A stretch of DNA of 64,000 bases, taken from NCBI GenBank assembly GCA_023819375.1, contig JAMWDI010000004.1:163088-227087 (forward strand), in the 5' to 3' direction. The position numbers and the translations under genes are program-made. Each line of letters starts with the position of its first letter. Position 1 is the stretch's first letter. The notes below the pieces were generated by a model. It had not been told where the DNA came from, made no database searches, and saw nothing but the letters and a program-made list of their open reading frames with translations. This DNA comes from Candidatus Omnitrophota bacterium. GTDB lineage: Bacteria > Ratteibacteria > UBA8468 > B48-G9 > JAFGKM01. Of the stretch, positions 13,191 through 63,990 are shown piece by piece.

Positions 13191-13934
13191 CTAAAAAGTA
13201 AAAACTTTCATATTAACAGTTATTCCATAATTTACACCAGGATTTAAACTTCCACTTGCATTTCTTGAACCCTTTAGACACGCCCTTAATCTTGATGGCT
13301 CACATGCTTCTACATGTCCATCTGAAAAGAGTGTGTTACACTTTCCCATATGTCTAAAATGAAATGTGTGATAATCTACAGGAGATGAAGTATCAAATAC
13401 ATAATTTAAACATAATCCATATTGGCTATTTCTTGAAAGATAAAGTGAATCAGCAAGAAGAATAAAATTTGATGGTTTTGTAATTTTTGGGAAATAAATA
13501 TAAAATACATATCCTCCTGGAACAGGACGCATATAAAATGTCCCAACATCATCAGGTGGGGCTGTTATACTTGAAACATATTGATTTACTCCATAAACAT
13601 ATTGCCATCCCTTGTAAACTTTTGGCTCAGCAGATGGACAGACTAATATTGTAGGTTTACCTACTTTAGGTTCAGGAAGATAAGAACTTATAGGTCCTGT
13701 TAACCATATATTCCAATATTGAATAGGTGAACTTCTGTAAACAGTCCAGTATCCATCGTAATCGTTTGCATACATTAAAATTGCTTGTCCTATTTGCTTT
13801 AAGTTATTGAAGCATACTGCCTGTCTTGCTCTTTCACGTGCTTTTGATAAAGCAGGTAGCAACATCGCTGCTAAAATTGCTATGATTGCCACCACAACAA
13901 GCAACTCTATTAATGTAAAACCTCTTCTTTTCAT
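13191..13934 (-). CDS. Prepilin-type N-terminal cleavage/methylation protein with DGHV C-terminal motif (cassette P1)
   Basis: 247 residues from the ATG at 13934; a GTG 9 bp upstream lies inside the GGGGGGTGAT Shine-Dalgarno. The leader MKRRG is followed by the prepilin segment [19 protein letters not shown], with the conserved Glu at position +5 of the mature protein. The inner-membrane peptidase should cut after Gly5. After the helix come [21 protein letters not shown], the motif LVCPSAEP, and near the C-terminus [12 protein letters not shown]. This DUF1559-like architecture is common in PVC bacteria. It is the only one of the seven whose next gene is a cytoplasmic Gfo/Idh/MocA enzyme rather than a secreted protein. 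It follows the ROK regulator by 54 bp. Confidence 0.92.
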
Positions 13935-13988
13935 TTTTATCACCCCCCTTTCTTATTTTATTTTTTATTTCTAAACAATACCTTTCCA

Positions 13989-15182
13989 TTATTCTTCACC
14001 TCCTTTTATTATTCGGTTTTTAAATATGTCTGCAATACATAAATTTGTCCCTTTTAAGATTCCTTCATTTTCATCAATATTAGAAAATTCAATTTTTAAA
14101 TCTTCAAGAAGTAGTGGTAATGCCTCTTTTAATATTGAATTTTTAATTATTGAAAGAAGGAAATCACCTGCTTTTATAAGAGGACCACCAAAAACAATTA
14201 CATCAGGATTAAAAATGTTGACTAACATTGCGCTCACTTTTCCTATATACTTTCCAGCATTTTCTATTACTTCAATACACAATTTATCTCTTCTATTTAT
14301 GCATTCCACTATATCTTCAATTTTTATTTTCTCTATATTGCCATTTACAATCTTTTCTATCTCTGAATGAACCCCCTCTTTTAAGCCATTTTTTATTTTT
14401 TCAATTATAGAACTTATGTTTGCAAATTTCTCAAGACATCCATAATTCCCACAATAACATCTCTCCCCATCTTTTTCTACAATTATATGTCCTATTTCTC
14501 CACAGTTTCCACTACTTCCATAAAATATTTTTCCATTTAGAATTATTCCAAGTCCAATTCCTTCTCCAAGATATATGTATAGAAGATTTTTTGTATTTTC
14601 ATTTTTCCTTATTTCAAATTCCATCCTTGCAAGAACATCAGGATTATCAAAAAGAAAAATATCTTTTTTAAATTCTTCTTCTAAAATTTTTCTCAAATTA
14701 ATTCTTTCCCATTTTTTCCAACCACATAATCCTAAAACTTCCCCTGTTTTTATATCTATGGCTCCAAGTAAAGATATTCCTATATTTTTCCATTTCGCTT
14801 CATCTAATTTAGAATTTTCTTTTAAGTTTTTTATAAATGATATCATTCTTGAAATAAAAAGTTCCTCATCCTTTTCTGAAAATTCTTTATCCTCTTTGAA
14901 AATTATTTTATTCCCATAATTTGTCACTCCACCTATTATTTTATTTCCATCATAAGATATAATTATTGAATGATAAAAGTCTGGATTTATTCTGTAAAAA
15001 CTTAGTCTTCTTCCTCTCCCTCTGATAATTTTTCCGTCTTTTACAATTTTCCCTTCATTAATTAGAATTTTTATAATTTTGCTAACTGTTATATTTCCAA
15101 TACCTGATTTTTCTACAATTTCTTTTCTTGATAAAGGTTCTTTTTCTAAAATTAATTTTAAAATTAAATTTTTTTTCTTCAT
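13989..15182 (-). CDS. ROK family transcriptional regulator with N-terminal winged helix
   Basis: 397 residues, the length of NagC/XylR-type ROK repressors. Residues 5-60 form a winged-helix DNA-binding domain (SRKEIVEKSGIGNITVSKIIKIL). The ROK domain follows, with YLGEGIGLGIILNG and the zinc site His232, Cys242, Cys244, Cys249 (GHIIVEKDGERCYCGNYGCLE). The loop that is normally ENDAN in active ROK kinases reads DNPDV (179-183); by eye the catalytic Asp is replaced by Pro181, so sugar kinase activity is unlikely. It probably senses a sugar and controls the operon that begins with the prepilin gene 54 bp downstream, and perhaps its own promoter at 15196-15230. Confidence 0.9.
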   Translation of the reverse strand: MKKKNLILKLILEKEPLSRKEIVEKSGIGNITVSKIIKILINEGKIVKDGKIIRGRGRRLSFYRINPDFYHSIIISYDGNKIIGGVTNYGNKIIFKEDKEFSEKDEELFISRMISFIKNLKENSKLDEAKWKNIGISLLGAIDIKTGEVLGLCGWKKWERINLRKILEEEFKKDIFLFDNPDVLARMEFEIRKNENTKNLLYIYLGEGIGLGIILNGKIFYGSSGNCGEIGHIIVEKDGERCYCGNYGCLEKFANISSIIEKIKNGLKEGVHSEIEKIVNGNIEKIKIEDIVECINRRDKLCIEVIENAGKYIGKVSAMLVNIFNPDVIVFGGPLIKAGDFLLSIIKNSILKEALPLLLEDLKIEFSNIDENEGILKGTNLCIADIFKNRIIKGGEE

Positions 15183-17662: not shown

Positions 17663-17669
17663 ATAAAAA

Positions 17670-17719: not shown

Positions 17720-17866
17720 ATGTTCAGGATTTTGAAGATAATCTGTCTGGAAAGAATTAATCATTGCAAGGAAAGAAATATAGAAGATGACTTAAATGAA
17801 TTACAAAGGAGAGGGCAAATAGATGTGAAAAAATTGTTTAGAATTCTTTATAATATCAAATTTTAA
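17720..17866 (+). CDS. Possible 48-residue protein of unknown function, doubtful
   Basis: A short open frame starting MFRILKIICLERIN and rich in charged residues (KERNIEDDLNELQRRGQ) fills most of the 200-bp gap between the radical SAM gene and the UroD-like gene. Its stop codon overlaps the 3' end of the convergent UroD-like gene by 4 bp. There is no ribosome site and no family is recognised. It may be a relic of a longer gene or chance. Confidence 0.15.
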   Translation: MFRILKIICLERINHCKERNIEDDLNELQRRGQIDVKKLFRILYNIKF

Positions 17867-18876: not shown

Positions 18877-18878
18877 TT

Positions 18879-25416: not shown

Positions 25417-26405
25417 TTCTCCTCCTTTTTTCTATAAACTTCCTGGAGTATTTTAACTGATTTTATATTCTCCTCAATAGTTATACCTTTTACTTCCTCA
25501 TCAAAATTCCCCTCTATTGCTTTTTTAAATTTATCAAGAGTCCATAGAAGAGAATCCTTAAATTCTTCCTTAGGAATATTTAAATATTCAATTCTATCTG
25601 ATTCTACTGGAGAATTTTTTCCATAAACGTAAAAAACTTTTCCATCTCTCAAATAGAGGACTCCATTTTCACCCTCTATCGTCCAGTAACCGGTCCAATC
25701 AGTTTGAATTCCTTTGCCTATCCACGTTGCATAATAATCAATAAAAATATCATCAAAAATCATATTTATAGAAACACACGCATTTCCCTTATAAGGACTA
25801 TATGAGGGATTAAATGAGTAAAATGATATTACTTTTTTTATCTCCTTTTCAAGAACATATCTTAAATCATCAAAATGGTGTATACTCATGTCATCCAAAA
25901 CAGGCTCTTTTATCTCTTCTCTCCAATCATATGTTCTCATAATTCTTGAAAAATATATTGAAACATATGAAATTTTGCCCAATCTACCACTTTTTATAAT
26001 CTCTCTCATAACTTTTAATTGTGGTGTACTTCTTTGATTCTGATTAACTAAAAAGACTACATTTTTTTCATTCTTTAATTTTAAAATCTCGGGTATTTCT
26101 TCAAAATTTAAAGTAAGTGGCTTTTCACATAAAATATTCATATTTTTAGATATTGCTTCCTTTGCAATCTTTAAATGGGTATCTGGAGGAGTAACAATAA
26201 TGCATCCATCAATTTTTTCTTTTATTTCATTAAGTTCAGAATAAATAGGGAAATTTCTATATTTTTCATTATCTCTTAATTCTTTCCTTACTTTTTCAGA
26301 TACTTCAACAATACCTCCTATTTCCCAATCTTTCTCTTCAATAATATAATCAATCCACCTTCTTCCAAGTTTACCGGCACCAACAATAACAACTTTTTTT
26401 CTCAT
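25413..26405 (-). CDS. Gfo/Idh/MocA family NAD(P)-dependent oxidoreductase
   Basis: 330 residues. Rossmann motif VVIVGAGKLGRRWIDYI, DGCIIVTPPDTH, and the catalytic-Lys loop NILCEKPLTLN. The second domain has LDDMSIHHFDDLRYVLEK, where paired His replace the more usual single His, and a beta-sheet region YATWIGKGIQTDWTGYW. Cytoplasmic sugar or cyclitol dehydrogenase of unknown substrate. It joins its neighbours by 4-bp overlaps on both sides, coupling it to the secreted TIM-barrel protein upstream and the creatinase-fold protein downstream. Confidence 0.88.
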   Translation of the reverse strand: MRKKVVIVGAGKLGRRWIDYIIEEKDWEIGGIVEVSEKVRKELRDNEKYRNFPIYSELNEIKEKIDGCIIVTPPDTHLKIAKEAISKNMNILCEKPLTLNFEEIPEILKLKNEKNVVFLVNQNQRSTPQLKVMREIIKSGRLGKISYVSIYFSRIMRTYDWREEIKEPVLDDMSIHHFDDLRYVLEKEIKKVISFYSFNPSYSPYKGNACVSINMIFDDIFIDYYATWIGKGIQTDWTGYWTIEGENGVLYLRDGKVFYVYGKNSPVESDRIEYLNIPKEEFKDSLLWTLDKFKKAIEGNFDEEVKGITIEENIKSVKILQEVYRKKEEK

Positions 26406-28282
26406 TCTTTCACCTCTTCTTTTGCTCTCTTAATACTATTAAAGAAACTTTCAGGTTTACCTTCAAGTAAATTTGGAACAAAGGGTTTAATTTCTCCTTT
26501 TTTTATTTTCTCTTCCATTTCCTCTCTTTTCTTTTTATCCATCCAATAATATTCATACCAACCATATCCAGGTGTATAACTTTGCCAATAAATCCAAACA
26601 TAGTCAGAATAACTTTCTCTTAAAAGTGGAATAAGTTTTTCGTACATACCACCGTCTTCTCTTTCTCTGCCTGGTGCTTCATATGTATTTGCTCTTCCAC
26701 CAACTCCACTATTTAAAAATAATTTTTCAGGTTCAACCTTTATATCAAAATTTTCCTTTAAAAATGGCATAACTTCAACAAAAAACTTTGTATTGTAGTA
26801 AGGTCCTTTAATTGTATCTCCTATATGTGGTGAATATTCTCCATCTATAATCTTTGTCTTTCCTTTACTTCCAGAAATCATCCCTGAGAGAAAAGAATAG
26901 AATAATCTATGTTTCATATCAGGATATAAATAACCAGGAGAAACAGATGATTTTTCTAAATTTCCCCAATGACATTGAAAAATACTTCTTCCAAGTCCAA
27001 CCATTCTTGAACCATCAACACTTATAACAACTATATCTGGTTTTTCTTCTTGTAAAATTTCAATAATTTCTTTACCCTTTTCAAAGGCTCTTTTTGCGCA
27101 ATCTTCAAAATTATATTTTTCTTTATAATATCCATGATAAGTAAAAATATGTGTTTTTTTACCAGGTGTTTCACAGTCAAGAAATATTCCTTTACAGTTT
27201 GTTTCTTTTACAATTTTACCTATTATTCTGAAATTTTCTTTAATTATTTCCCATATTTTTTCGTCAAATAACCAATCAACATTCTCTTCATTTCTTAAAT
27301 AAGCACTAACCCATAAAAAATTATCCTTCCATCTTTCAAATTTCAAATTTTTCAGTATATCAATCTGTGGTTTTAATTTTTCATAATCAATTTTAACTGT
27401 ATAAGAAAATGGCCAGAAACCACCATAAGGACAGATATTATCAATATTATCAAATCCTATTGTAATTCCATCAAAATAAAAATACTGTTCTTCAAGTTCT
27501 TTTAATCTTTCTTTCAATTGAGATACTGAAATTCTTCCCCATCCACTTTGAATTAACTTAGGATAAGTTACTGGTGGATAAACAAATGAAATTTTTTCAA
27601 TATTATCTTTATATTTTAAAGAAAAGAAACTATCTTTTTTTACTTCCTTTTTTATTAAAATTAAATTCCACCCCTTATTTATTTTAAATTTAAATTCGTC
27701 TTTCCCTTCAATTAATTCTCCATTTACAAAAAATTTAATCTCATTATCTGAACTTATAAAAAAGTTGCTTTCCTTTTCATCTGATGAAAATAACCAGAAA
27801 GAAAGATAATAAACACCTTCTTCAAATCCTTCAAATTTTAATATATCTAAAGTTGAACCAAAAAATTTCCACTCAGGTAAAGATGGTTTTATTTCTTTTT
27901 CATTCAACTTCTTTTTCGCAGGCCCTTTTATTAAAAAAGTTCTTAAATATTTCTCTGTCTTTACTTCTCTTATTTCTGATTTTGCTTTTTCTCCTTCTAT
28001 TGTTTGTGATTCAACATAAAAATAAATAGTAAAATCTGAAGGAAGATATGAAATTTCAAATTTGTGTTTTTTTCTCAAGTTTTTATCAATTAAAAATGCA
28101 CAATATTGTGAATTAAGCAATGACTTAAATGGACTATAAAATAATCTTGAATCTGCTTCTTTATCTGTTTCCCATTCAATTGTTACTGAAAAGGAATTTG
28201 AATATGTTTTAAGATTTAAAATTTCTAATCCTTTGCAACTTAAAAAAGAAAAAATATAAATAATAATAAAATATCTTCTCAT
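26402..28282 (-). CDS. Secreted TIM-barrel protein of an unnamed family (D-x-E type), with N-terminal FN3-like and PA14-like domains
   Basis: 626 residues. A signal peptide (RRYFIIIYIFSFLSC) may end in a weak lipobox at Cys16. An FN3-like segment (about 20-115) contains VTIEWETDKEADSRLFYS, then a beta domain (about 140-250) with FWLFSSDEKESNFFISSDNEIKFFVNGE as in PA14-type binding modules. From about 265 comes a barrel whose core matches two other proteins here (38854-40506 and 49917-50993): W-DE-W spacing, GIFLDCETPG, FTYHGYY and RAFEKGKEIIEIL, and near the end SDYVWIYWQSYTPGYGWYEYYW. Asp and Glu of LDCET are candidate catalytic residues. It follows prepilin P2 by 11 bp. Confidence 0.65.
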   Translation of the reverse strand: MRRYFIIIYIFSFLSCKGLEILNLKTYSNSFSVTIEWETDKEADSRLFYSPFKSLLNSQYCAFLIDKNLRKKHKFEISYLPSDFTIYFYVESQTIEGEKAKSEIREVKTEKYLRTFLIKGPAKKKLNEKEIKPSLPEWKFFGSTLDILKFEGFEEGVYYLSFWLFSSDEKESNFFISSDNEIKFFVNGELIEGKDEFKFKINKGWNLILIKKEVKKDSFFSLKYKDNIEKISFVYPPVTYPKLIQSGWGRISVSQLKERLKELEEQYFYFDGITIGFDNIDNICPYGGFWPFSYTVKIDYEKLKPQIDILKNLKFERWKDNFLWVSAYLRNEENVDWLFDEKIWEIIKENFRIIGKIVKETNCKGIFLDCETPGKKTHIFTYHGYYKEKYNFEDCAKRAFEKGKEIIEILQEEKPDIVVISVDGSRMVGLGRSIFQCHWGNLEKSSVSPGYLYPDMKHRLFYSFLSGMISGSKGKTKIIDGEYSPHIGDTIKGPYYNTKFFVEVMPFLKENFDIKVEPEKLFLNSGVGGRANTYEAPGREREDGGMYEKLIPLLRESYSDYVWIYWQSYTPGYGWYEYYWMDKKKREEMEEKIKKGEIKPFVPNLLEGKPESFFNSIKRAKEEVKE

Positions 28283-28293: not shown

Positions 28294-29004
28294 TTATTCA
28301 TAAAAAGCACTCCAGACAGCATATTTTACATGAAAAGTACTCCAGTCAATAAGTTTTACACTTCCATCACAGAATAAAACATTATAGCCTATTAAATGAG
28401 GTTGAGGAACTCTTAGTCTTTCTCCATTATAATCATAAAATCCATTACAAGCAGGTGTCATAACCCTTATTCCACCTAAAGCAGAAGCATCTGTTACCGG
28501 AAAACAAACCATATAATAAAAGTTTCTTGGTTTTGTTTCTGTTAAAAGTATTTGTGTTGATGGCTTTTTAATTTTACTTATTTTATAATTACCTGCCCAT
28601 CTGCCCTCAAAAAGAGTCATTCCATAATCAGAAAAATAAGTTCTACCACATCCCCAACCTCCTCCCGGATCGTAATTCCATCTATTGAATTTTAAAATTG
28701 ATGGGCATTTTAGTAATTTCGTATCTTTTAAATATCCTCTATCTATAAATCTGTTATACCAAAAAGCCTCTGAATTAGGAGTATTTAAGAAAACAGTTGA
28801 TTCAATAAATTTTGGTAAATAATCATCATAATCAATTGTATACATGGCAAAAGCAAGTCCTAATTGTCTTAAATTATTCATACAACTTGCCTGTCTTGCT
28901 CTCTCCCTTGCTTTTGAAAGAGCTGGTAGCAACATTGCAGCAAGGATAGCAATTATCGCAACTACAACAAGTAATTCTATTAATGTAAATCCCTTCCTTT
29001 TCAT
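28294..29004 (-). CDS. Prepilin-type N-terminal cleavage/methylation protein (cassette P2)
   Basis: 236 residues from the ATG at 29004, preceded by GGGAGGTGAG; the GTG at 29013 lies inside that ribosome site. Leader MKRKG, then [19 protein letters not shown]. After the helix: [30 protein letters not shown], and the late motif [14 protein letters not shown] Gly-rich stretch ([13 protein letters not shown]) in the middle adds two further Cys. Expected in the inner membrane or a pseudopilus after cleavage at Gly5. It is the first gene of the nine-gene operon to 17863 and has a TTGACA/9-bp-repeat promoter directly upstream. Confidence 0.92.
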
Positions 29005-35175: not shown

Positions 35176-35885
35176 TATTCTTCCTTTAATTTAACATTAT
35201 CAACAATCCAGTTTGTTGTATCATAAATATAATTTAAAAATCCAACTTCAAATATTTCAATTTTCTCTGGAATTTCTGGTTTTCCTTCTATATTTAATGA
35301 ATCTTTTAAATCAAATTCAAAATCAAACCATATGTTTTGTTTTAAATCCCATGAACCTGTCTGAACATTTTTTCCAATCCATGATAAAAATGTATAATTA
35401 TTAGGTATTATTCCTTCAAATGCATTTAACCTTTCTTTTTCATTATCCCATCCCCAAACTTTTTTTGCTTCCTTTATCAAATTAAATTCTTTTTCTCCAG
35501 AATGGATAATAAAATAATAAAATCTATAAACTGGTTTTTCTTTTTCAATCGGTTTTCCTTTTAAATAAAATGAAACAAAATATCCATTATATCTTTGTAA
35601 AAATTTAATTGAAAAACTCACTTTTAATGATTTTTTTGTATCCCATATTATATCCGGATTTATTTTTATCCCAGGAGAAAAGTATTTTGCTTCCTTGGCA
35701 GAAATATTTAAAGCATATTTCCCATCCCTTGCATCTTCAACTATTTTATATTCACATCTTCCATCAATCTTCTCCCATCCTGTTAACTTTCCTTCTTCAA
35801 AACTACCATAAATATTCAAAATTTCACACTCTTTAGAAAAAATTAAAGTTAAAAGTATAAAAAGAAAAATTAAAATTTTTCTCAT
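35175..35885 (-). CDS. Secreted beta-sandwich (carbohydrate-binding-like) protein
   Basis: 236 residues. Signal peptide RKILIFLFILLTLIFSK, then EILNIYGSFEEGKLTGWEKIDG, the usual opening of galactose-binding-like jelly-roll modules (SFE-x-G-x-x-x-GW). Further beta strands follow (GKYALNISAKEAKYFSPGIKI; LKVSFSIKFLQRYNGYFVSFYL), and it ends with EIFEVGFLNYIYDTTNWIVDNVKL, a typical final strand of CBM4/CBM11-like domains. No catalytic domain is present, so it may bind glycan for the neighbouring enzymes. It overlaps the upstream CBM9-like enzyme by 4 bp. Family assignment is by fold-level pattern only. Confidence 0.6.
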   Translation of the reverse strand: MRKILIFLFILLTLIFSKECEILNIYGSFEEGKLTGWEKIDGRCEYKIVEDARDGKYALNISAKEAKYFSPGIKINPDIIWDTKKSLKVSFSIKFLQRYNGYFVSFYLKGKPIEKEKPVYRFYYFIIHSGEKEFNLIKEAKKVWGWDNEKERLNAFEGIIPNNYTFLSWIGKNVQTGSWDLKQNIWFDFEFDLKDSLNIEGKPEIPEKIEIFEVGFLNYIYDTTNWIVDNVKLKEE

Positions 35886-43667: not shown

Positions 43668-46393
43668 TTTTTAATCTCTCCTAAACTGAATGTTGAATCG
43701 TAAACTCCAATATATTTAAGCATCTCTATTGTTTCTAAATTTTTCTCTCTTGGCTCGTCCCAATAATACCATAATGTATCTGCAACATGGAATTTGCCAT
43801 AATAGACATATTTTTTGTCAAGTAAATAAAGCAACTTCTTTATAGTCTCTTTCAATTCCTCGTTGGTTCCTTTTATTATCAAACTATTGCCCTCTATTCT
43901 TATCTCTGGAATTTTATCTTCTTTTATTATTATCTTATATTCATTCTCAATTTTCTCATCTTCTATATTTTTTACAGGAATTATCAATTCTTTCCGATAT
44001 TCACTACCGTATTTATACCAGAACCTAAAATATTCAACTATCCTCTCAGCAAAATTCTTTAACCCTCTCTCTACAAAAATTACACTTTTATCATATGGGA
44101 AATTTAATATCTCCTCTTCTCTTGATTTTATCACTTCTGAAACAAACTTAATCTTAACTATATCATTGACTTTAGGCTTAATCCCATAATTTAAATCCCT
44201 TAAATTTATCTTCTTCTCATTTATTTTTATCTCATTTAATTCATATCCATCTGGTTGATATAAAATAAATTTGTGATTTCTTCCCTTTACATCTAATAAT
44301 TCTAAAATTAATTCAATAGAATCTGCTCTTTTTATCTCCTTAGTTTTTACTCTTATACCGTCCCCTTTATATCCACAGATTGATTTGAAAACTAAAAACT
44401 CTCTTGGCAAAATCTCTATGTCAAAAATTGTATTTTTATTGATATCAAATATATATTCTTTCCCAAACCAATTAGTTAAAATAGGAGAAAATCCTTCAAA
44501 ATATTTTCCTAAAATTTCAACTTTCCCATTTATTCTATCTTTTGTGGAATTACTAAATGTAAAATACTTAACTTTTTTGCCAAATCTTGAAATAAGTAAA
44601 TTTTCAGGTCCTTTACATCCTGTCAATGGTTCCCAGCCAGTATCTTTTATTTCAATAAGTAATGGTAATATTTCAAACATCTCTGGTATTCCTCTTATTA
44701 AGTCAGGATATGGCAAAATTCCCCAGTATAAACAACCAATTATCATATGTTTCCATAAGCCTCTATATGTATCAAGTATTTCCTCTTTTTTAAAATCTCT
44801 CCAGTTTATTCTCTCTGCAAATTTATCCCCTCTTAATGTTGAATGCATACCAATCACTTTTCTACCCATAAGTAATCTGTAAATGTTTAAAAGTTCTTTT
44901 GTATTTTTATCATATGTATTTATCCATCGCCATTCAATCATTCCTCTATCACTTCTAAAAACTATCATATATGGAATAGGATGTTCTCCCCCTGGATTTA
45001 TCCATATACCTACTTTATATTTTCCATCTTTTGTTCTCAATGAATGAATAAAATCAAAATTTTTAGCAATACCCACTCCTTCAAGGATATAAATACCTTT
45101 TTCATCCCATGCCTTTGGTAAATCAAGAATTTCTATTAGTTTTCCATAATATTTTCTATTTCCCATTCCACCAGAAGAATCATAAGCAATACCTGTAACT
45201 CCATCTATCTCTTTGAAAATTCTTTTTAAACCATCTTCAAAAAATTCGCCAAACTTGCCTCCATAGGGAAACATCCAGTATGCTGTTTCATAATAGTATG
45301 ACATAAATGATGGTTTATCAGTTATCTTTGATTCTGGAAATTTCTCATCTGCTAAGGAACTTTCACAACCATTCCAAATATAAAAACATCCTCCTACGTC
45401 ATATTCTTTAACAAGTTTAAATCTCTCCTCCCTATATTTCCTATATTCTTCCGCAGTTTTTTGCCATTGAATTGACTTTTTGGCTACTTCTTCATTTGCA
45501 GGTTTATAATCCCAATACTCATCCCTACAATACCAATCTCCTTCTCTCTTCCATGGACCGTAACACCAACAAGTAGTTGCTCTTATCCTTCTTAAAATTT
45601 CAGGGCTCATACCAGAATAATAATAGCCAAAAGGAAATCCTGCAGTATCTACTCCTTCTACTATCTTTGGGTCTATTTCTTTATTATGTATGAAAAATTC
45701 GGAGAATGTATCATAATATTTCTGAATGAAATTTCTCCATCCAAAATCACTTTCACAAGCAAATATTAAAAACCTTATTTTCTCTTTATCTCTACTTTTT
45801 AAATATAATCTTGTTGAATATTGAAAATTCTTATTTTTATCAAACTTGCTACATAAATATGAAATTAACTGTTCAGGAGTTATACCAATAGCAACTCCAG
45901 AATTTTCATCATAAACACATGAAAGGGGAAATGTTGAATTTATATCATCTCTTTTAATTTCATTTTTTATTTCTAAATGCTCATATCTACCATCAAAAAA
46001 TTTCCATCTCCCTTCAATTAAAGGTAAATTTATTCCAATTTCAATCCTTTTTTCTTTATCTTCAAGATTTTTTATATAAATATTCCAGATAATCAAATTA
46101 TTTATTTTTTCAAAAGAATTATCTAACTCCATTGTTTCATCTTCGCTTTGCCATAAAAATCCATCTTTCCTTTCTTTTATTACTCGCCCTTTCTTTAAAA
46201 TAATATCTTTCTCTTTATCATAAATACAAAAATAACCATTTTCTTTCAAAAATTTCTTCCCTAAAAAATAAATATTAATTATCTCTCCAGTTTTCTTATC
46301 AAAAATAATCTCTGTATTTCCATTTTTTACTTGTATTTTTGCCTCAATTGATAAAATTAGAATAGAGAAGAAGATGAGTAATTTTTTTAACAA
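43664..46393 (-). CDS. Large secreted glycosidase-like protein, homologous to the 1205-residue protein at 29110-32727
   Basis: 909 residues from a TTG start at 46393 with an ideal AAGGAGG 5 bp upstream; the frame opens 9 codons earlier within the preceding gene but without a ribosome site. Signal peptide KKLLIFFSILILSIEA. Beta-rich N-terminal half (NGNTEIIFDKKTGEIINIYFLGKKF), then NKEIDPKIVEGVD, YWMFPYGGKFGEFFEDGL, GVTGIAYDSSGGMG (candidate catalytic Asp) and RSDRGMIEWRWINTYD. The C-terminus YFRFWYKYGSEYRKELIIPV ... SLIIKGTNEELKETIKKLL matches the end of the giant protein at 29110. It lacks that protein's N-terminal binding domain, which is encoded by the adjacent upstream gene instead. Confidence 0.7.
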   Translation of the reverse strand: MLKKLLIFFSILILSIEAKIQVKNGNTEIIFDKKTGEIINIYFLGKKFLKENGYFCIYDKEKDIILKKGRVIKERKDGFLWQSEDETMELDNSFEKINNLIIWNIYIKNLEDKEKRIEIGINLPLIEGRWKFFDGRYEHLEIKNEIKRDDINSTFPLSCVYDENSGVAIGITPEQLISYLCSKFDKNKNFQYSTRLYLKSRDKEKIRFLIFACESDFGWRNFIQKYYDTFSEFFIHNKEIDPKIVEGVDTAGFPFGYYYSGMSPEILRRIRATTCWCYGPWKREGDWYCRDEYWDYKPANEEVAKKSIQWQKTAEEYRKYREERFKLVKEYDVGGCFYIWNGCESSLADEKFPESKITDKPSFMSYYYETAYWMFPYGGKFGEFFEDGLKRIFKEIDGVTGIAYDSSGGMGNRKYYGKLIEILDLPKAWDEKGIYILEGVGIAKNFDFIHSLRTKDGKYKVGIWINPGGEHPIPYMIVFRSDRGMIEWRWINTYDKNTKELLNIYRLLMGRKVIGMHSTLRGDKFAERINWRDFKKEEILDTYRGLWKHMIIGCLYWGILPYPDLIRGIPEMFEILPLLIEIKDTGWEPLTGCKGPENLLISRFGKKVKYFTFSNSTKDRINGKVEILGKYFEGFSPILTNWFGKEYIFDINKNTIFDIEILPREFLVFKSICGYKGDGIRVKTKEIKRADSIELILELLDVKGRNHKFILYQPDGYELNEIKINEKKINLRDLNYGIKPKVNDIVKIKFVSEVIKSREEEILNFPYDKSVIFVERGLKNFAERIVEYFRFWYKYGSEYRKELIIPVKNIEDEKIENEYKIIIKEDKIPEIRIEGNSLIIKGTNEELKETIKKLLYLLDKKYVYYGKFHVADTLWYYWDEPREKNLETIEMLKYIGVYDSTFSLGEIKK

Positions 46394-47641: not shown

Positions 47642-48778
47642 TTAAATTTTAATCTCTCCTTTTTCAAGTTTATTCAATATTTCTTCATATTCATCTCTAT
47701 CAATAGGTATTTTAATCGGCATCCTTTTTATTGATGAAAGAACAAAAGCATTTGAAATCTCAAGTGAATATATCCCCTCTTTTCCTGAACATAATGGTTT
47801 ATCAATACCTCTTACTGCTTTTATAAACTTTTCAAGCAATACATCCCTATTTTTAAACTCAATAACTTCTTCTTCAAAAACATTTTTTACATAAGAAACA
47901 TCTTTCATTCCTCTTTCACAATTTTTTATCCAATCAGGAATAGAAGTTGTAAATTTTAATATTTCTGTTTTTTTAATTTGTCTATTTGGATTATCCTGAC
48001 ACATTTCAATTTTCTGCAAAATATTTCCTTTTGTTCCTCTTATTTCTAAATAAAAGGTATGAGGACAATCAGTTATACTTAAACTTACAACACCATTTGT
48101 TCCATTTTCAAACTCAATTATTCCATTTACCAAGGTATCAACAGGAACATTGTGAAAAAGATTTTTTATTTTCCCATAAACTTCTTTTGGTTTTCCAAAA
48201 TACCAGTATAACAAATCAAAATAATGGACCATCTGATTTATAACACACCCCCCACCTGATAATTGCCAATTTCCTCTCCATTTTTTTGAAAAATAGGCAT
48301 TTGTTCTAAATTTAACATCTTCGAGTATAAATCTTATAGGAAAACCAATTTCTCCCTTTTCTATAATTTCTTTAATCTGTGAATGAAATTTAAGACCTCT
48401 TGACTGAAAACCAACAGCAAGAATAAGATTTTTTTCTTCTGCAATTTTTATAATTTCATCTGCTTCTTTAACAGTTTTTGCTATTGGTTTTTCAACAAGA
48501 ACGTGTTTTCCTCTCAGAAGTGCTTCAATGGCTACAGGATAGTGAAGATAGTGGGGTAGAGCAATATAAACTGCTTCAATATCGTCTCTTTTAAGTAATT
48601 CTTTATAGTCAAGATAACCATCAACTTTATATTTTTCTTTACACCCTTCAACAAGTTTTTCATTTATATCACAAACAGCAATAAGTTCTGTATTTGGTGT
48701 TTTATAAATAACATCTGGATAACCTAATTCAACATCAGCTATTCCTATAACTCCAAATCTTACTGGTTCAATTTTCAT
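47642..48778 (-). CDS. Gfo/Idh/MocA family NAD(P)-dependent oxidoreductase
   Basis: 378 residues. The start is [19 protein letters not shown], an altered Rossmann loop (GxxxxE) compared with the GxGxxG/A of its paralogues, so cofactor binding may differ. Then [36 protein letters not shown] with the catalytic Lys, and [23 protein letters not shown] with the conserved His. Cytoplasmic. Its start overlaps the stop of the epimerase-like gene by 1 bp, and prepilin P5 follows 11 bp later. Confidence 0.9.
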
Positions 48779-49920
48779 TATTCAACTTCAATTTCATTTA
48801 ACAAATAAAAATCCTCTATTAATTTATTATTTTTCATAATCTTGAAATACCATCTGTAATTTCCTTTATTTGCCAAACCGTCAATTTCTCCTTTTGTTTT
48901 ATATATTTTTTCTGGACTTAATATGTCAACAAAAACTCCTTTAAAATTCTCTCCAATCCCAAAATTTATTTTTAAATTCTCAATTCTCTGTGGAGATGTA
49001 ATTTCTAAATAATAAGGTATCTTTTCATCTACTTTAACCTTATTTTTTGATTCAAGATTTAATGCAATATTTTCTGATAAATAGGATATATTGTTTAAAC
49101 CAGAAATAGAGACAAGATAAATTTTAAATTCATTTTCATTTTCAGGATAGATGACTTCTAAGGTTATACCCCTTTTTTCTCTTTCGTCTTCTAAATTTCC
49201 ATTCCACGAATAAAATATAACTTTTTTATCAATAAATTTTTTCTCAATTACAATACCACCAACCAATTTTTTATTTCTATCAACAATACAAAACCAGTTC
49301 TGTTTGGGTAAATAAAAATAACTTCCTACTTCTGGATGAAAAATTTTTATTCCATCTTTATCTATTATTTCTGTTATATTCCTTACCCTTTCAGTTGTTT
49401 TTGCAACAGGTATAATTAAAAAATCATCCTTATCAAACTCTCCACCTACGCAAAACATAGGATGAAACCAATAACTTTTTTTATCAAAATTACCTTTTAC
49501 GTCTATTTCAACAATACTGCTGTTCTTGAAAACATTTACTTTCCTTTCTATCCCACTTATATTTTTTAGATTTATAACAACTTTTTCTTTGCTATTTTCT
49601 AAAATTTCATATTCATATTTTTCTTTTTTTAAATTTCCTCCGCCAGGCCATATCCAATCACTAATACCAGCAAAATTTGGTATTTCATATGTTAGACTTC
49701 CTGGGTAAAATTCTTTTTTAATTAATTTAAAAGGGAAAACTATTGGATTTTCTAAAAATTCATATTTTGAAATAACACCACCATATTGAGGGATTATTTC
49801 AAGTTCAATATAATCATTTTTAACAAAAATTTTGTCAAATTTATCTTTTATTATTTTCAGTTCACATTCACAGAAAGAAATTAAACTTATCAATAAAAAA
49901 TTGAAATAAATCTTTTTCAT
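48778..49920 (-). CDS. Secreted galactose-mutarotase-like beta-sandwich protein
   Basis: 380 residues. Signal peptide KKIYFNFLLISLISFCEC; the Cys suggest a lipoprotein is possible, but the lipobox is poor. Residues about 25-250 look like the aldose 1-epimerase/galactose-mutarotase superfamily (NDYIELEIIPQYGGVISKYEFL, DWIWPGGGNLKKEKYEYEIL, YWFHPMFCVGGEFD, KQNWFCIVDRNKKLVGGIVIE), as in DUF4380-type proteins. A C-terminal Ig-like strand region follows. The position between a secreted barrel protein (4-bp overlap) and a dehydrogenase suggests handling of a released sugar or recognition of a glycan. Catalytic residues cannot be assigned. Confidence 0.6.
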   Translation of the reverse strand: MKKIYFNFLLISLISFCECELKIIKDKFDKIFVKNDYIELEIIPQYGGVISKYEFLENPIVFPFKLIKKEFYPGSLTYEIPNFAGISDWIWPGGGNLKKEKYEYEILENSKEKVVINLKNISGIERKVNVFKNSSIVEIDVKGNFDKKSYWFHPMFCVGGEFDKDDFLIIPVAKTTERVRNITEIIDKDGIKIFHPEVGSYFYLPKQNWFCIVDRNKKLVGGIVIEKKFIDKKVIFYSWNGNLEDEREKRGITLEVIYPENENEFKIYLVSISGLNNISYLSENIALNLESKNKVKVDEKIPYYLEITSPQRIENLKINFGIGENFKGVFVDILSPEKIYKTKGEIDGLANKGNYRWYFKIMKNNKLIEDFYLLNEIEVE

Positions 49921-50993
49921 TCTTCCTTTTTTACTTTCTTAATTGCTTTTAAATATTCCTCTGGTAAATTTGGTGGAAAAAATTTTACTTGTTGTGAATA
50001 AATCCATACATATTCATCGCTTATTTCAAGAGCATATTCAAGGGATTTTTGAAATTCTTCTGGTTTGAAATAATTTTTTGAAAAATCCTCATTGTTCCAT
50101 TTATTTCCATTGTCAATCCAGAGTCCAAATCCTACTTTAATTTTTTTTCTATATTTTTCTGGATTAATTGAAAATTTACTCGCTTTATTTATGATAGAAT
50201 GATAACTTTCAAGAAATTGAATTTTTTCTTTAAAACCATATGCAAATTCACATATGTCAAAAATTCTCATTCTTTCATCACTTTCATCTATAAAGCCATC
50301 TACAAAATATGGCAATAGTCCATATGAATTTATTTCAGGCTCTTTTAGTTTTTCAGAAGGATGTAAAACAAGATAGGAATGTGTCCAGAAAAATAAAATT
50401 GTTATATCTGGATATATTTCTTTTGTTATTTTCATTAATTCTTTTCCTCTTTCATAAACTTTCATTTTGTATTCTTCAAATGGTCTATTCACCCTTTCTC
50501 TCATAGTAGGATAGTGAAAAAAATAAGCACCATAATGTTCTGGATCAATAATTATTCCTTTTAAATTTCCCTCTTTTGCTATTCTTATATATGTTTTCCA
50601 ATTATTTTTAATTATTCTCCATCTTTCTTCATCAAACCAGTTAAAATTTTGATCCTGAGCAGTTGAACATATACATGCAGGTAAAAAATTGTCTTTGAAT
50701 TTTTTCCATTGCGGAATTTTTAAATCCTCCACTGCTTCCTTGAAATTATCATATTTAAATTCTCTTTTGCTAAATAAATGCCATCCAAGAATATTACCAG
50801 TATCTACAGGCCCTTTTTTTCTATCAATGCAAATATTTATTCCTATTCCATCAAAAGGCATTTCTTCCATTTTTTCCCAGTTTTCTCTTATATACATTGT
50901 GTCTCTTGTTCCCCATCCATAATATATAATCTTTTTTGAGACTTCACTAAATAATAAATTTGAAAAAAGAAATAAAATTAATAATTTTTTCAT
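49917..50993 (-). CDS. Secreted TIM-barrel protein of the unnamed D-x-E family
   Basis: 358 residues: signal peptide KKLLILFLFSNLLFS and a single barrel. It aligns by eye over its whole length with the barrel of 38854-40506: KIIYYGWGTRDTMYIRENW, NWFDEERWRII, KGIIIDPEHYGAYFFHYPTM, KVYERGKELMKITKEIYPDI, VGFGLWIDNGNKWNNEDFS and [15 protein letters not shown]. The conserved Asp and Glu/His of IIDPEH and the Asp of WIDN are the best active-site candidates. It lacks the C-terminal binding sandwich of its paralogue. It directly follows prepilin P6 (12 bp). I cannot place it in a named CAZy family. Confidence 0.65.
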   Translation of the reverse strand: MKKLLILFLFSNLLFSEVSKKIIYYGWGTRDTMYIRENWEKMEEMPFDGIGINICIDRKKGPVDTGNILGWHLFSKREFKYDNFKEAVEDLKIPQWKKFKDNFLPACICSTAQDQNFNWFDEERWRIIKNNWKTYIRIAKEGNLKGIIIDPEHYGAYFFHYPTMRERVNRPFEEYKMKVYERGKELMKITKEIYPDITILFFWTHSYLVLHPSEKLKEPEINSYGLLPYFVDGFIDESDERMRIFDICEFAYGFKEKIQFLESYHSIINKASKFSINPEKYRKKIKVGFGLWIDNGNKWNNEDFSKNYFKPEEFQKSLEYALEISDEYVWIYSQQVKFFPPNLPEEYLKAIKKVKKEE

Positions 50994-51005: not shown

Positions 51006-51662
51006 TTACCAACCGTGAATCCAACCAAGTGTTGGGTCATAACATATATAATCAGAAGTATTAAAACTTGCCCATATTACTGAACCATCTCCTCTTAATT
51101 GATTTTGCCCAACTGGTTTTTTCAAAAACCTTCCATGATTATGGTAAGCTGTATTTGTCGTGTATGTTTCATCGACAAAAATTATTCTTTCTGAAGTGAA
51201 ATCTCTTGATTTTAACTGGAATAAATATTTTAAGTCAGTTCTATCTGATTTGCCTGTATATCCATAGAAAGCAACTCTATAACTCCATTGATCTCTAAAC
51301 GGTAAGTAATCCGTTCTTTTTGGCCATCTTAGAGAGGGACTTGGACAGTAAAAAACGTTATAATTCTTATCATTTATATATGATGGAACAAGTGTATCCG
51401 CAAAAAATTGTTTAACTCCATTTATATAAGTTCCACCAGGCCATTTAACCTGCCAAGTTGAGAGATAATCTAAATACCACAATCTTCCATAATCTTCATA
51501 ATACATAAACATAGCAAGTCCAATTTGTCTTAAATTATTCATACAAACTGCTCTTCTTGCTCTCTCCCTTGCCTTTGATAAAGCAGGTAAAAGCATACTG
51601 GCCAGAATTGCAATTATTGCCACCACAACTAACAATTCTATTAGTGTAAATCCTTTTTTCAT
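51006..51662 (-). CDS. Prepilin-type N-terminal cleavage/methylation protein (cassette P6)
   Basis: 218 residues from the ATG at 51662, with GGGGAG just upstream. An ATG 30 bp earlier lies in the promoter repeats and would add a spurious [10 protein letters not shown]. Leader [23 protein letters not shown]; then [29 protein letters not shown] and [13 protein letters not shown]. The DG motif is the most divergent of the set. It heads the operon running to 41364, with a second prepilin (P5) inside it. Confidence 0.92.
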
Positions 51663-59654: not shown

Positions 59655-59678
59655 ATTTTCTCATCAAAAAGAGGTTTT

Positions 59679-62600
59679 TTAATTTCCTCGACTTAAAAAT
59701 TTGATATCTTTTAAATATCCATCTTCAAAAAGTTTTATCAACTTAATTTTTTCTTTAAACTCATAAGTTTTATTTTTTTGTTCAATTTCTTCAGATAAAA
59801 CTTTTTTATCATTTACATCAATAAAGATAAGTTTTGTTTTTTTATCTTTTTTGAAATCTTTTATTTCTAAATTAATTTTACCCTCAATTTCTTTTATTTC
59901 AATTCTTTTAGGAAATTTGCCAATACATGCTGTTTCTTCATTCCTTACTTTTTTTATTTTAACAATGTTTTTATCCCCCTGTTTTAAAACTTTCAATTCT
60001 TCCATATTTATTAAATCTACATAATGAAAATCCGGTTCGTCATCCACTTCAAAAATAACTTCTTGAGTATATCCTGTACTATTAAATATCGTAATTATTT
60101 CTTTTATTCCATCTGAAAATAGATTTGCATATATATCTTTCTTCAATGTAGGGATTAATGGTTTAAGTATATTTCCATTAAAAGCATCGCTATTTTCTTT
60201 TAATATTTCAAATTTTCTGTCGTCATAAAAATAAAGAGGAGGATCTACTTTCCAGGGATGTTTGCCAAGTGTTCCACCTATTGCCATTCCATTGAAAAAA
60301 GATAATTCTTTAATTAATTTTCTTTCTTTTAAATCGTTTGATACTTGGGAACTCCATTCTATTTGTTTACACTCAGGGAAATAAAATCTGAAAAGATTAA
60401 CAGGAATTGATTTTATACCAACTCCAAAATATCCTGGAAGTAAACATCTTCTTATATAATAACAAAGTGCACCATCAAGATTACTTGCCAAATAATCGTT
60501 TCCTACAAATTCAGCAGTTAATATCGTATCCTTATTTATTCTATCTATTTTTTCTCTCACTTTCTTTGCCAAAAATGATTGTCCTTGAAATCCTATATCT
60601 TCTCCCAGATATTTAGCAAATATATGAGTATGTTTGTCTGACCAACAGGAATTTGGTTTTCTATTGCCAGCATATCCAAGTTCGTCCAATCTAACACTAT
60701 CAATTTTTGTATCTCTAACAATTCTTTCAATTATTGAAGAAAAATATTCTGCCCAAAAATCATTATCACAACACATATTATATTCCAAATCTGCTACATA
60801 TTCCTTTGGTGCTTCTTCAAGATAAAAAACACCTGCTAATTTCTTTTTGTCTTTTTCACTTATTGGATTTATTATTCCATATTTTTCTCCATATTTTTTT
60901 CCTGTTTCACTTGAACTTATTACTAAATTATAGTCTGTATAAAGAGCAGTAATAATTCCTTTCTTTTTTATATCTTCAATATATTTTCTAAATGATTCAA
61001 GACCTCCCCATGCCTTTCTATATTCATAATCACCTCTATTAAGATTATAAACCCATTCTCCAGTTTCAGGGTCTTTTTCCCAAGCATATGGTAATCTTTT
61101 TTTTAATGTCTCATATTTAGGATTTTCCATTATTTCTTTTACCGGTATACCCCATGGACCTTCCTTAGAAGGATTCCACCATAAACCAATTTCAATCATA
61201 TCTACCTTATCTTTATATTTTTCCCATTCACTATAAAAGATTTTTTCATGTTTATCATAATCATAAAAGGGGTGCAGAGTAAAATAATGATAGACATCTT
61301 TCAATTTTTTAGGTCCTATCCATTTCCATACATTATGAGCCCATTGAGAATATTTTTCCATTGCTTTATGCCAATCATCTTCATGAACCTCTATTATTAC
61401 ATCATCAATTTTATAATTTTCTTTAGGTTTAAGTATATACATTTGATAACCAAATCCAATATTTATATACTCACTATCTTTAAATAATTCTTCTACTTCA
61501 TGCCAAACATACTCTGTTGGATTTCTTTTTTCATCGGTTCTAATTCTTTTAATTTCAGGATACATTCCTTTCGTTAAAAATATGTTTTTATATTTGCCTT
61601 CTGTATCTGTGCTTCTCATTAAGATGCCATATCCTTTTTCTGGGCTAAATATATCTATCATTTGCCACCAACACTCTTCTGCGCCATAAATTAATGAGAA
61701 CATAACATTTTTGTTTGAGATAAAACCACCATATAGTGGGTATAAATACCAGTTTTCTTTTTCAATTTCTGATAAAGTTATTCCACCAAGATGAGGGAAA
61801 CAGACCTTTAGTTTTATGTCTTTTGTCCCTTTATTTCTAAACTCTAAATTCCATATAAACTCAGGATTATTTCTTTTCAATTCTAAAGTTAATTTTGCTT
61901 CAAGTAGATACTCATCAAGTGTTAAAATTAAAGTTGTTCTTTCTTTTTCTATTATTATGTCCTTTATTTGAAAATCTTTTGCTTGTATCAATTTTTCGTT
62001 ATTATCTATTTTCACTACAAAGATTTTGCTATCCTTTGATGATTTTATAATATTCTCACCGTATAAGGTTTCAAATTGTTTCAGTTCTAAATAAGGTTTT
62101 ATTTTAAAAATTATGTTGTAATATTCGTTTTTCAAAGTTATTTCTTCTTCTTTTTTGCCTATTCTAACGCCAAATCCCATATTCTTTTTCATTGGTTTTT
62201 CCAATTTATACCACATACTTATTTGTTCTTGTTTGGGTAAATATCCGGCAAAATATTTTATTCTTATTAAATCTGTTGTAAATTCAGGATTATTAATAAC
62301 AAGAGAAAAAGGCAAATCTCTTTCAATTTTTAAAACGTTCCCTTTCCCTATTTCTTTTCCATTTGTATCTTTCCAGATAATTTCACCTTTTATGCCTTCT
62401 ATTCTAATATTACTAAATGTAGATATTTTTCCCTTTTCAAATTCTAAATATAAACTTTGTCCATCATATTCTATAAACTGAACAAGGCCTTGGTCATCTT
62501 TTTTAATTATATCTTTCACTATTTCTATCTCTTTTTCTTCTTTATCCTCATATAATACCAATCTAATCATATATTCGCCAGTAGCATTTACTAAATTTAA

Positions 62601-63155
62601 TTTTTCATTAGTCCAAGTTTTTCCACCATCTAAACTTAAGAAACTTGTTCCTTTTTGGACTGAATTGTCTATACCAATATAAATGAAATCATCTTTTGAA
62701 TTTTCACCTTTATGAATTATTATTTTATTTTCACCATTTTTTAAGTAAGAAATTGGAATTATAAAATCAATCCATTGATAAGGAGGATAAGAACCTTTAT
62801 ATGCACCAGCAATTTTTTCTAAAGTTATCAAAGGGATTTTAATTTCATTTCCATTTATTTTTATTACCATATCTTCTGTAAAACCAGTTCTTGGTTCAGA
62901 ATAATCAACAGTTCCAAAAAATATTTGTAATCTTGCTTCTTTAATTTTATTTAAATTTATCCCTTCTATATTTAAAATTTTCATAATTTGATAATTGGGC
63001 TTATCTTGATGTGTACATCCTAATGATGCTCCTCCCCATAAATTATTATCGTTATAAATTAGATAGACATTCTCTACTTTTTTAATTTCGCCTTTAAGGT
63101 TCAAAACTAAAAAATAAAAAAATAAAAATACCATTCTCTTAACTTTCATTTTCAC
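59679..63155 (-). CDS. Giant secreted DUF6259-like glycosidase candidate
   Basis: 1158 residues; GTG start with GGAGGG 6 bp upstream, or the ATG 6 bp later. Signal peptide VKRMVFLFFYFLVLNLKG. N-terminal jelly-roll (about 25-210: ARLQIFFGTVDYSEPRTGF, NGEIKIPLI-like strands), a beta-sandwich (210-560) and a TIM-barrel-like core from about 600. The core contains DVYHYFTLHPFYDYDKH, DMIEIGLWWNPSKEGPWG, ITALYTDYNLVI, KIDSVRLDELGYAGNRKP (candidate catalytic Asp/Glu) and TILTAEFVGNDYLA. This outline matches DUF6259-type proteins related to GH36/GH101-like barrels as I recall them. Beta C-terminal tail. First gene after prepilin P7. Confidence 0.7.
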   Translation of the reverse strand: MKMKVKRMVFLFFYFLVLNLKGEIKKVENVYLIYNDNNLWGGASLGCTHQDKPNYQIMKILNIEGINLNKIKEARLQIFFGTVDYSEPRTGFTEDMVIKINGNEIKIPLITLEKIAGAYKGSYPPYQWIDFIIPISYLKNGENKIIIHKGENSKDDFIYIGIDNSVQKGTSFLSLDGGKTWTNEKLNLVNATGEYMIRLVLYEDKEEKEIEIVKDIIKKDDQGLVQFIEYDGQSLYLEFEKGKISTFSNIRIEGIKGEIIWKDTNGKEIGKGNVLKIERDLPFSLVINNPEFTTDLIRIKYFAGYLPKQEQISMWYKLEKPMKKNMGFGVRIGKKEEEITLKNEYYNIIFKIKPYLELKQFETLYGENIIKSSKDSKIFVVKIDNNEKLIQAKDFQIKDIIIEKERTTLILTLDEYLLEAKLTLELKRNNPEFIWNLEFRNKGTKDIKLKVCFPHLGGITLSEIEKENWYLYPLYGGFISNKNVMFSLIYGAEECWWQMIDIFSPEKGYGILMRSTDTEGKYKNIFLTKGMYPEIKRIRTDEKRNPTEYVWHEVEELFKDSEYINIGFGYQMYILKPKENYKIDDVIIEVHEDDWHKAMEKYSQWAHNVWKWIGPKKLKDVYHYFTLHPFYDYDKHEKIFYSEWEKYKDKVDMIEIGLWWNPSKEGPWGIPVKEIMENPKYETLKKRLPYAWEKDPETGEWVYNLNRGDYEYRKAWGGLESFRKYIEDIKKKGIITALYTDYNLVISSSETGKKYGEKYGIINPISEKDKKKLAGVFYLEEAPKEYVADLEYNMCCDNDFWAEYFSSIIERIVRDTKIDSVRLDELGYAGNRKPNSCWSDKHTHIFAKYLGEDIGFQGQSFLAKKVREKIDRINKDTILTAEFVGNDYLASNLDGALCYYIRRCLLPGYFGVGIKSIPVNLFRFYFPECKQIEWSSQVSNDLKERKLIKELSFFNGMAIGGTLGKHPWKVDPPLYFYDDRKFEILKENSDAFNGNILKPLIPTLKKDIYANLFSDGIKEIITIFNSTGYTQEVIFEVDDEPDFHYVDLINMEELKVLKQGDKNIVKIKKVRNEETACIGKFPKRIEIKEIEGKINLEIKDFKKDKKTKLIFIDVNDKKVLSEEIEQKNKTYEFKEKIKLIKLFEDGYLKDIKFLSRGN

Positions 63156-63180
63156 CTTGCCCTCCTTTTCAACATATTTT

Positions 63181-63990
63181 TTATCTACCTTTATAAACTT
63201 GCGGGAAATACCTATTTGGTAATTCTTTTATAAAAGGTCTTTGTAATAATCTTTGTTCATTTAAGGCCTCTACATGACCATCAGCAAATAACATAGTAGC
63301 AAATCCATTATGTCTTAATGCAGGAGCCCCAACTACTGGTTGTCCATATCCTAAAAGTGAAATATCTGAATCTAACCAGTAAATTTGACACCCATAATAT
63401 TGAGGTGCACTTGCCAAAACATAGCCAGTATCTCCTGCTAAAATATATTTATCTGCTATAGGTAATTTTGAAATATTTAAAAAACAAATTACATTTCCTG
63501 CATGTGTTCTATAAACATACCTATTAGCATATGGGGTTCCTTCTAACCACCTATATGCAAGTGTTATACCATAAGTTCTACTAATACCATCATTTATTCT
63601 ATACAATCCACTTGGACATACAAAAACACTTCCTTTACCATAATAAGTATAATTTGTTGGCTGGCCATTTTCTGTATAATATGGTTTTCTTGAAGATGTG
63701 ATATATCCTGGTCTCCATAAAAATTCTGTCCATGCCATTGTTTCAGTTCCTGATACTGTTCTTCCTGGTAATCTGTAAGAATATACATATGGAAAAGAAA
63801 GAACCCATCCATCATAATCTTCTCCATACATTAAAAAAGCAAGCCCTATTTGTTTTAAATTATTAATACAAGTTGCCTGTCTTGCTCTTTCACGTGCCTT
63901 ACTTAGAGCAGGTAAAAGCATTGCTGCAAGTATCGCTATGATTGCCACTACTACAAGCAATTCTATTAATGTAAAACCTTTCCTTTTCAT
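63181..63990 (-). CDS. Prepilin-type N-terminal cleavage/methylation protein (cassette P7)
   Basis: 269 residues, the longest of the seven. Ribosome site AGGTGA; ATG at 63990, 10 bp from the window edge, so the promoter is outside. Leader [24 protein letters not shown], then [30 protein letters not shown], and [24 protein letters not shown], a complete H-x(9)-DG block. The central part is Tyr- and Gly-rich ([25 protein letters not shown]). It heads the operon running to 55309 and is followed 25 bp later by the giant DUF6259-like protein. Confidence 0.92.

Follow-up and report, generated by a model that had tools for sequence, protein, structure and literature searches.

Polysaccharide feeding without Sus systems is poorly known in the Planctomycetes-Verrucomicrobia-Chlamydiae (PVC) and Omnitrophota-like lineages, and the function of the very large DUF1559 prepilin family of these lineages is not established. 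Both problems meet in a 64,000-nucleotide stretch of a Candidatus Omnitrophota bacterium (GenBank assembly GCA_023819375.1, contig JAMWDI010000004.1, positions 163,088 to 227,087 of the forward strand; here the window, always meant at its full length), where seven prepilin-like genes, P1 to P7, lie among genes for secreted proteins. What do pilus-type subunits do beside such proteins? We find that the pairing of a prepilin with a secreted glycan-active protein is genuine and recurs as a unit, and that an earlier note on the window overlooked a third part of this cassette, a GntR/LacI-type sugar-sensing regulator that often stands upstream of the prepilin. At roughly even odds (a probability of about 0.5), each cassette is a sugar-inducible glycan-utilization unit in which the prepilin displays a variable, likely glycan-capturing body on a type IV-like fibre.

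Prepilins followed by secreted proteins

Contig C9 ends with the window; its genome of 1.73 Mb is in 13 contigs, and 656 kb of it was sampled, namely the stretches around PF07596 matches and ten unselected 20-kb stretches. Genes were called with a simple codon-usage caller and signal peptides with a hydrophobicity rule; the latter is crude and individual calls may err, but the contrast between paired genes and background is independent of individual calls. The sampled DNA holds 48 prepilin-like genes, 45 of them with a next gene on the same strand; this next gene encodes a signal-peptide protein in 34 of the 45 cases, whereas among other genes the count is 39 of 313 (p = 4e-18). Measured against the ten unselected stretches (background 21/148), the pairing has p = 2e-14. 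Gaps between prepilin and next gene are mostly 0–42 bp, and 26 of the 51 signal-peptide proteins of at least 400 amino acids (aa) in the sampled DNA directly follow a prepilin.

The prepilins of the window are as follows.

13191..13934, minus strand: P1, DUF1559 prepilin, 247 aa; PF07963 and PF07596, H-X9-DG above cut-off
28294..29004, minus strand: P2, DUF1559 prepilin, 236 aa; PF07963 and PF07596
38157..38849, minus strand: P3, DUF1559 prepilin, 230 aa; PF07963 and PF07596
40521..41309, minus strand: P4, DUF1559 prepilin, 262 aa; PF07963 and PF07596
46974..47630, minus strand: P5, DUF1559 prepilin, 218 aa; PF07963 and PF07596, H-X9-DG above cut-off
51006..51662, minus strand: P6, DUF1559 prepilin, 218 aa; PF07963 and PF07596
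63181..63990, minus strand: P7, DUF1559 prepilin, 269 aa; PF07963 and PF07596, pilin-like predicted fold

The earlier note had called these genes prepilin-like from their common leader and their CPS and DG motifs, and both the assignment and the motifs held up. All seven match PF07963 (N_methyl) and PF07596 (DUF1559) above the cut-off, the latter with 38.0–45.3 bits against a gathering score of 23.3 and mostly over the first part of the profile, and TIGR02532 is above its cut-off in 7/7. The alignment of the seven shows no variation at F6-T7-L8-I9-E10, C125-P126-S127 or D237-G238, and the leader sequence FTLIELLVV is common to all. TIGR04294 (H-X9-DG) exceeds its cut-off in P1 and P5, falls just under it in P2, is weak in P3, P4 and P7, and is unlisted for P6. 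The predicted model of P7 has a helix at residues 8–58 followed by a beta-rich body (predicted local distance difference test score 73.5, moderate confidence); the VIA-align matches listed for it are all pilins, the best being type IV pilins with a Z of only 5.1 for PilA4, and we regard the fold as pilin-like at moderate confidence.

A separate class of DUF1559 prepilins occurs as tandem pairs or triplets without a secreted partner, as at C9:53625-55143, and tandem pairs are also found in genomes G003, G004, G006, G008, G025 and G017. The bodies of this class are kept between species (for example, 66% identity between G004 and G006), and its members may be the principal subunits of the filament. 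A protein at L151:5819-6913 of a Victivallis-like genome starts MLYKRHKNFTLIELFAVKTCQIYHSSLVCTRQSRE, which is prepilin-like, continues with unrelated sequence, and adjoins a normal prepilin.

A sugar-sensing regulator upstream

Among 20 scanned upstream neighbors of 250–420 aa, 14 carry Peripla_BP_3 together with a DNA-binding domain of the GntR or LacI type; of the others, two are ROK proteins and one is AraC. The genome holds 19 PF13377 regulators, 15 of which directly precede a prepilin (one of these a contig-end leader), while two more head gene runs that contain a prepilin and the other two do not. In a search with a hidden Markov model (HMM), a regulator lies directly upstream of 14 of 46 prepilins and of 4 of 512 other genes, a comparison that leans towards genes upstream of prepilins, from which the model was partly built; the Pfam-based PF13377 counts, in this genome and in Victivallis vadensis (below), are free of that bias. 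All 14 of these prepilins belong to complete regulator-prepilin-secreted triads (14/14). In the window, a regulator-like gene of the ROK kind precedes P1.

13989..15182, minus strand: ROK-family-like regulator upstream of P1; helix-turn-helix start, 54-bp gap, assigned by gene sequence

At locus L256 (C8:217385-219432), the gene directly after a GntR/PF13377 regulator encodes a secreted LamG-like protein, and no prepilin stands between the two; this unit is a cassette that lacks or has lost its prepilin.

Secreted partners in the window and the genome

It had been noted that the next gene is secreted in six of the seven cases, and we confirm this: P2 to P7 are each followed by a same-strand signal-peptide gene, and P1 is the exception. 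The partners and their neighbors are listed by position.

7719..9686, minus strand: secreted LamG (concanavalin-like) protein, fourth gene after P1 in the same gene run; PF13385
12227..13189, minus strand: gene after P1, cytosolic Gfo/Idh-type oxidoreductase; GFO_IDH_MocA match, assigned by gene sequence
26402..28282, minus strand: P2 partner, secreted, 626 aa
29110..32634, minus strand: large secreted protein after a relic leader; its own start codon is non-standard
32635..32727, minus strand: decayed prepilin leader MKSREFILIELLVY..., in which Glu replaces Gly before the cleavage site
35175..35885, minus strand: second secreted protein of the P3 operon; weak CBM_4_9 match under cut-off
35882..38155, minus strand: P3 partner, secreted, 757 aa, CBM9; PF06452
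38854..40506, minus strand: P4 partner, secreted, 550 aa, C-terminal GH2 sugar-binding domain; PF02837
41364..43667, minus strand: secreted protein of the P5 operon, 767 aa; weak galactose-binding-domain match under cut-off
43664..46393, minus strand: secreted protein of the P5 operon, 909 aa
46407..46970, minus strand: P5 partner, secreted, 187 aa; signal peptide, 3-bp gap
48778..49920, minus strand: second secreted protein of the P6 operon, 380 aa; no Pfam match
49917..50993, minus strand: P6 partner, secreted, 358 aa, predicted TIM barrel, glycosidase-like; AlphaFold model, no Pfam match
59679..63149, minus strand: P7 partner, secreted, 1156 aa, DUF6259; signal peptide, PF19773

By alignment, the partners of P2, P4 and P6 form one family, with those of P4 and P6 44% identical and that of P2 distant at 29%. 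The AlphaFold model of the P6 partner has the eight strands of a TIM barrel, and its Foldseek and VIA-align matches are mostly glycoside hydrolases (best Z 15.3 at about 8% identity), which makes the protein glycosidase-like by predicted fold; a fold alone is no proof of activity. For the P7 partner, a search of the relatives gave only fragments, and we therefore regard it as not conserved. Across the genome, the families of next genes include CBM9 (6), DUF4838 (4), LamG (3) and the GH67 N-terminus (3), together with DUF6259, GH123, GH42M, GH39 and NAGLU. None of the paired secreted proteins has a lipobox (0/34), so that another holder is needed if the partners stay at the cell.

The relic leader at 32635-32727 follows a Shine-Dalgarno-like stretch and is in frame with the next secreted protein, whose start codon appears lost. 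It is probably the remnant of an eighth cassette.

Cassettes in other lineages

PF07596 is present in all of the genomes searched within the class (35/35). Secreted next genes are significantly more frequent after prepilins than after other genes in the bacterium's own family, f1 (20/27 vs. 35/76), and in family f2 (13/20 vs. 34/110). For Lentisphaeria, a first count gave no enrichment because many prepilins there have longer N-terminal ends, for which the motif window was too short; with a motif window that was widened for all taxa after this first result had been seen, 16 of 26 prepilins and 16 of 76 other genes have a secreted next gene. Independent checks on the widened window come from a separate sample of V. 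vadensis, a member of Lentisphaeria, and from a Pfam-based regulator count. In the cultured type strain of this species, a secreted protein comes next after 12 of the 19 prepilins sampled and after 27 of 137 other genes, and ten of the 14 upstream genes scanned are GntR regulators. A PF13377 regulator ends at most 600 bp upstream in 26 of the 106 V. vadensis prepilins listed, where random placement would give 1.3, and the partner domains include GH39, LamG, beta-helix and CBM.

The dozens of cassette copies carried both by our genome and by V. vadensis, a gut bacterium of another phylum, suggest glycan feeding based on pilus proteins. In its widest form, the idea would be a pilus-based glycan system of two phyla, in which regulator-controlled subunits have exchangeable bodies that each capture one glycan or carry one enzyme, dozens of them are displayed by one machine, and bodies are shuffled behind a constant leader; we offer this tentatively, with the odds leaning somewhat against it. 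Conservation of the unit in a cultured organism gives the DUF1559 family a testable role, and regulator and enzyme together let each prepilin be given a candidate substrate.

How the cassette may work

On the reading that we favor, a regulator with a LacI-like sugar-binding domain (GntR/LacI, sometimes ROK or AraC) would sense the breakdown product of one glycan, and this would switch on the prepilin and, with it, at least one secreted glycan-active protein. An N-terminal helix of about 60 codons, near-invariant between copies, would allow any of them to be processed by a single prepilin peptidase, and all would join one type IV-like filament, whose most likely assembler is the ATPase/PilC/prepilin cluster near the window. 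The variable beta-rich body would then be displayed at the surface, where it would most likely capture polysaccharide or oligosaccharide, and the enzyme would meet its substrate near the cell. The order of the genes, the kind of regulator and the families of the partners speak for a sugar-induced glycan-utilization unit, and the constant leader with its variable body supports one assembly machine that displays many bodies; co-transcription, filament assembly and, above all, glycan binding by the body are what we infer.

Several observations weigh against glycan capture by surface-displayed bodies. Foldseek returned nothing significant for the P7 model, and no glycan-binding fold was found in a body. 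The secreted partners could act in the periplasm. In families f3, f4 and f5, each taken alone and with smaller samples, the pairing is not significant; the sampled loci of Verrucomicrobiae show no enrichment (4/32 vs. 27/139) despite many DUF1559 genes, and the pairing occurs in none of only seven cases in Planctomycetes. Because the samples of Verrucomicrobiae and Planctomycetes are without the pairing, the DUF1559 family must also have other uses.

Do the bodies follow their enzymes?

The earlier note had proposed that each prepilin is a partner that anchors, displays or exports the enzyme encoded beside it. Part of this survives, in that prepilin and enzyme do form a recurrent unit conserved between species; a tailoring of each prepilin to its own enzyme is not borne out by co-variation within the genome, the test that the note itself had suggested. 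As a carrier, the body would bind the neighboring secreted enzyme and export it or hold it on the filament, in the manner of TcpB-TcpF, a minor pilin and a secreted protein of the Vibrio cholerae type IVb pilus that are encoded in one operon and bind directly (PMC9565799). This precedent shows that a minor pilin can carry a secreted protein. As there, a pilin-type gene and a secreted-protein gene stand together here; unlike that single pair in a single pilus operon, we see dozens of scattered pairs, mostly away from machinery.

Fixed-order adjacency with small gaps and partners without a lipobox are what a carrier would lead one to expect, and body and partner are also conserved together between species. 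The cassette at C9:160246 and its counterpart in G004 have enzymes 70% and bodies 68% identical; in a cassette set from G016, G025 and G019, the enzymes are 71–78% and the bodies 56–73% identical; and orthologous cassettes across genera keep body and enzyme together with a body identity of 45–89%. Over all genomes, body-enzyme co-occurrence was observed 23 times against 7.4 expected, with a maximum of 15 in 2000 within-genome shuffles of the enzymes. Such cross-genome co-occurrence fits inheritance of whole cassettes and is by itself no demonstration of binding.

Within the genome, the signs of pair-specific co-variation that a carrier calls for are missing: among the 37 enzyme-homologous pairs, 9 have recognizably related bodies, compared with 151 of all 820 pairs, so that body relatedness is independent of enzyme relatedness. 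P4 and P6 have unrelated bodies beside their 44%-identical enzymes, while the body of P7 is 49% identical to one at C12:77416 whose enzyme is unrelated; the body of P1 is 46% identical to that at C8:192067. Between C7:1603 and locus L091 of G001, regulator and enzyme are conserved side by side and the body is unrelated, and one conserved prepilin directly precedes a cytosolic isomerase-like protein in three genomes. With this evidence, a body that binds its own enzyme is in our view unlikely, at about one chance in four. We prefer glycan capture to enzyme binding because bodies do not track enzyme families and because the gene right after some cassette prepilins encodes a cytosolic catabolic protein.

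The leaders have a history of their own. They had been described as held by selection and not by recent duplication, of which the first half stands and the second does not hold for some copies. Synonymous change dominates (18.4 synonymous and 6.2 non-synonymous codons of 45 in pairs from the window), and the codon match at same-residue positions is 0.519 against 0.486 expected; silent sites are thus almost saturated, so that selection is what maintains the leader. Some leaders have been copied recently, since the leader DNA of P7 is 91% like that of two prepilins outside the window. P7, C10:11 and C7:1603 are 91–94% identical in DNA between −9 and about +180, beyond which the DNA no longer matches, and a further pair, C8:192067 and C8:197258, is 90% alike across almost that interval. 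On C7, a regulator and a leader are duplicated together (95% over 1.25 kb), and the contig ends inside the second leader; the second regulator is a candidate for the upstream gene that P7 is missing. Leaders and bodies are thus shuffled within the genome.

Exchanged leaders, and bodies beside unrelated enzymes, would also suit a simpler account, in which a general attachment prepilin is merely expressed together with hydrolases and its body has no link to substrate or enzyme. We think this improbable, since such indifference fits poorly with orthologous cassettes that keep body and enzyme together across genera, and the large diversity of bodies in one genome would be needless for a generic adhesin.

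Pilus machinery and Sus components

The window, as had been observed, contains no pilus machinery; but a machinery cluster lies 8–16 kb before its base 1. Three prepilins are encoded in this cluster (C9:147-155 kb), two of them DUF1559 proteins, along with a T2SSF protein, a PilT-like ATPase and two ATPases of the T2SSE type that carry MshEN domains. Two further machinery loci with secretins lie on C3 and C2, the cluster at C3:309-316 kb holding secretins, an ATPase-like gene, GspF and short prepilins, and the genome totals are three secretins, three GspF/PilC proteins and one prepilin peptidase found. That the cassette prepilins are instead pseudopilins that tune a type II secretion system for co-expressed cargo, with no long filament, is the least probable account of all: the second cluster with secretins on C3 and the leaders' best scores, which are with GspG/PilA-type models, speak for it, but that locus has short prepilins of its own, the two DUF1559 prepilins adjoin the other cluster on C9, and we know of no case of dozens of cargo-specific pseudopilins.

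For SusD, no PF07980 match was found in the whole genome, where a Bacteroides control gives one. The only TonB-dependent receptor found in the genome lies at C9:21 kb, with some 12 kb between it and the closest of the prepilins found.

Relation to known systems

The cassettes resemble the polysaccharide-utilization loci (PULs) of Bacteroidota in gene content and order, as repeated sugar-regulated units with their own regulator and secreted glycan-active enzymes. They differ in that SusD is absent, the sole TonB-dependent receptor lies outside the cassettes, and a prepilin takes the place of SusC/SusD. The earlier note's term, a pilin-based counterpart of the PUL, is a fair analogy because the unit is recurrent and conserved, often has its own regulator, and occurs in a genome with no SusD and one TonB receptor; the cassette resembles a PUL in its working but falls outside the SusC/SusD definition. 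Should the bodies prove to bind glycans, the cassette would solve the problem of SusC/SusD in a second way, by means of a filament.

Verru_Chthon cassettes (TIGR02599, TIGR02596; proteins C and D) are likewise multi-copy and have prepilin-like members. In our prepilins, both models match the leader only, TIGR02596 with about 20 bits (cut-off 70) and TIGR02599 with no more than 21 (cut-off 256), and unlike in those cassettes no A–D gene set was seen.

With their methylation motif, DUF1559 start, DG(H/S) end and many copies per genome, P1 to P7 are like the known DUF1559/SBP_bac_10 (PF07596) prepilins with TIGR04294. High copy number in this group is already known (PMC2754498, PMC4807772), and 74 DUF1559 genes have been reported in Rhodopirellula baltica (PMC2754498). 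The published accounts that we found give DUF1559 proteins a solute-binding label or one without function, and the regulator-prepilin-secreted-enzyme unit is absent from them; in the open-access literature searched, we found no description of the three-part cassette, although one may exist elsewhere. In Planctomycetes, labelled dextran binds pili-like fibres (PMC5394234). Such fibres may serve as a precedent for the capture idea, the link to DUF1559 being one that we infer.

Assembly and other observations

Three contig ends carry an identical 127-bp prepilin leader (window 63874-64000, C10:1-127 and C7:10846-10972), and because this leader is common to them, the end of the window is an assembly break inside a leader. 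Prepilin matches also lie near contig ends in several genomes of relatives, and metagenome-assembled genomes from short reads may drop or mis-join prepilin cassettes. An apparent physical linkage, a 1297-aa prepilin-enzyme fusion at C3:2561-6454, was rejected as an artefact, since its open reading frame crosses a run of N.

Elsewhere in the window, positions 3650-5487 resemble an activator of the 2-hydroxyacyl-CoA dehydratase type, positions 17863-18876 look like a uroporphyrinogen decarboxylase-like methyltransferase, and positions 21862-23238 and 33778-35175 are two candidate MttB-like methyltransferases, all as impressions from their sequences.

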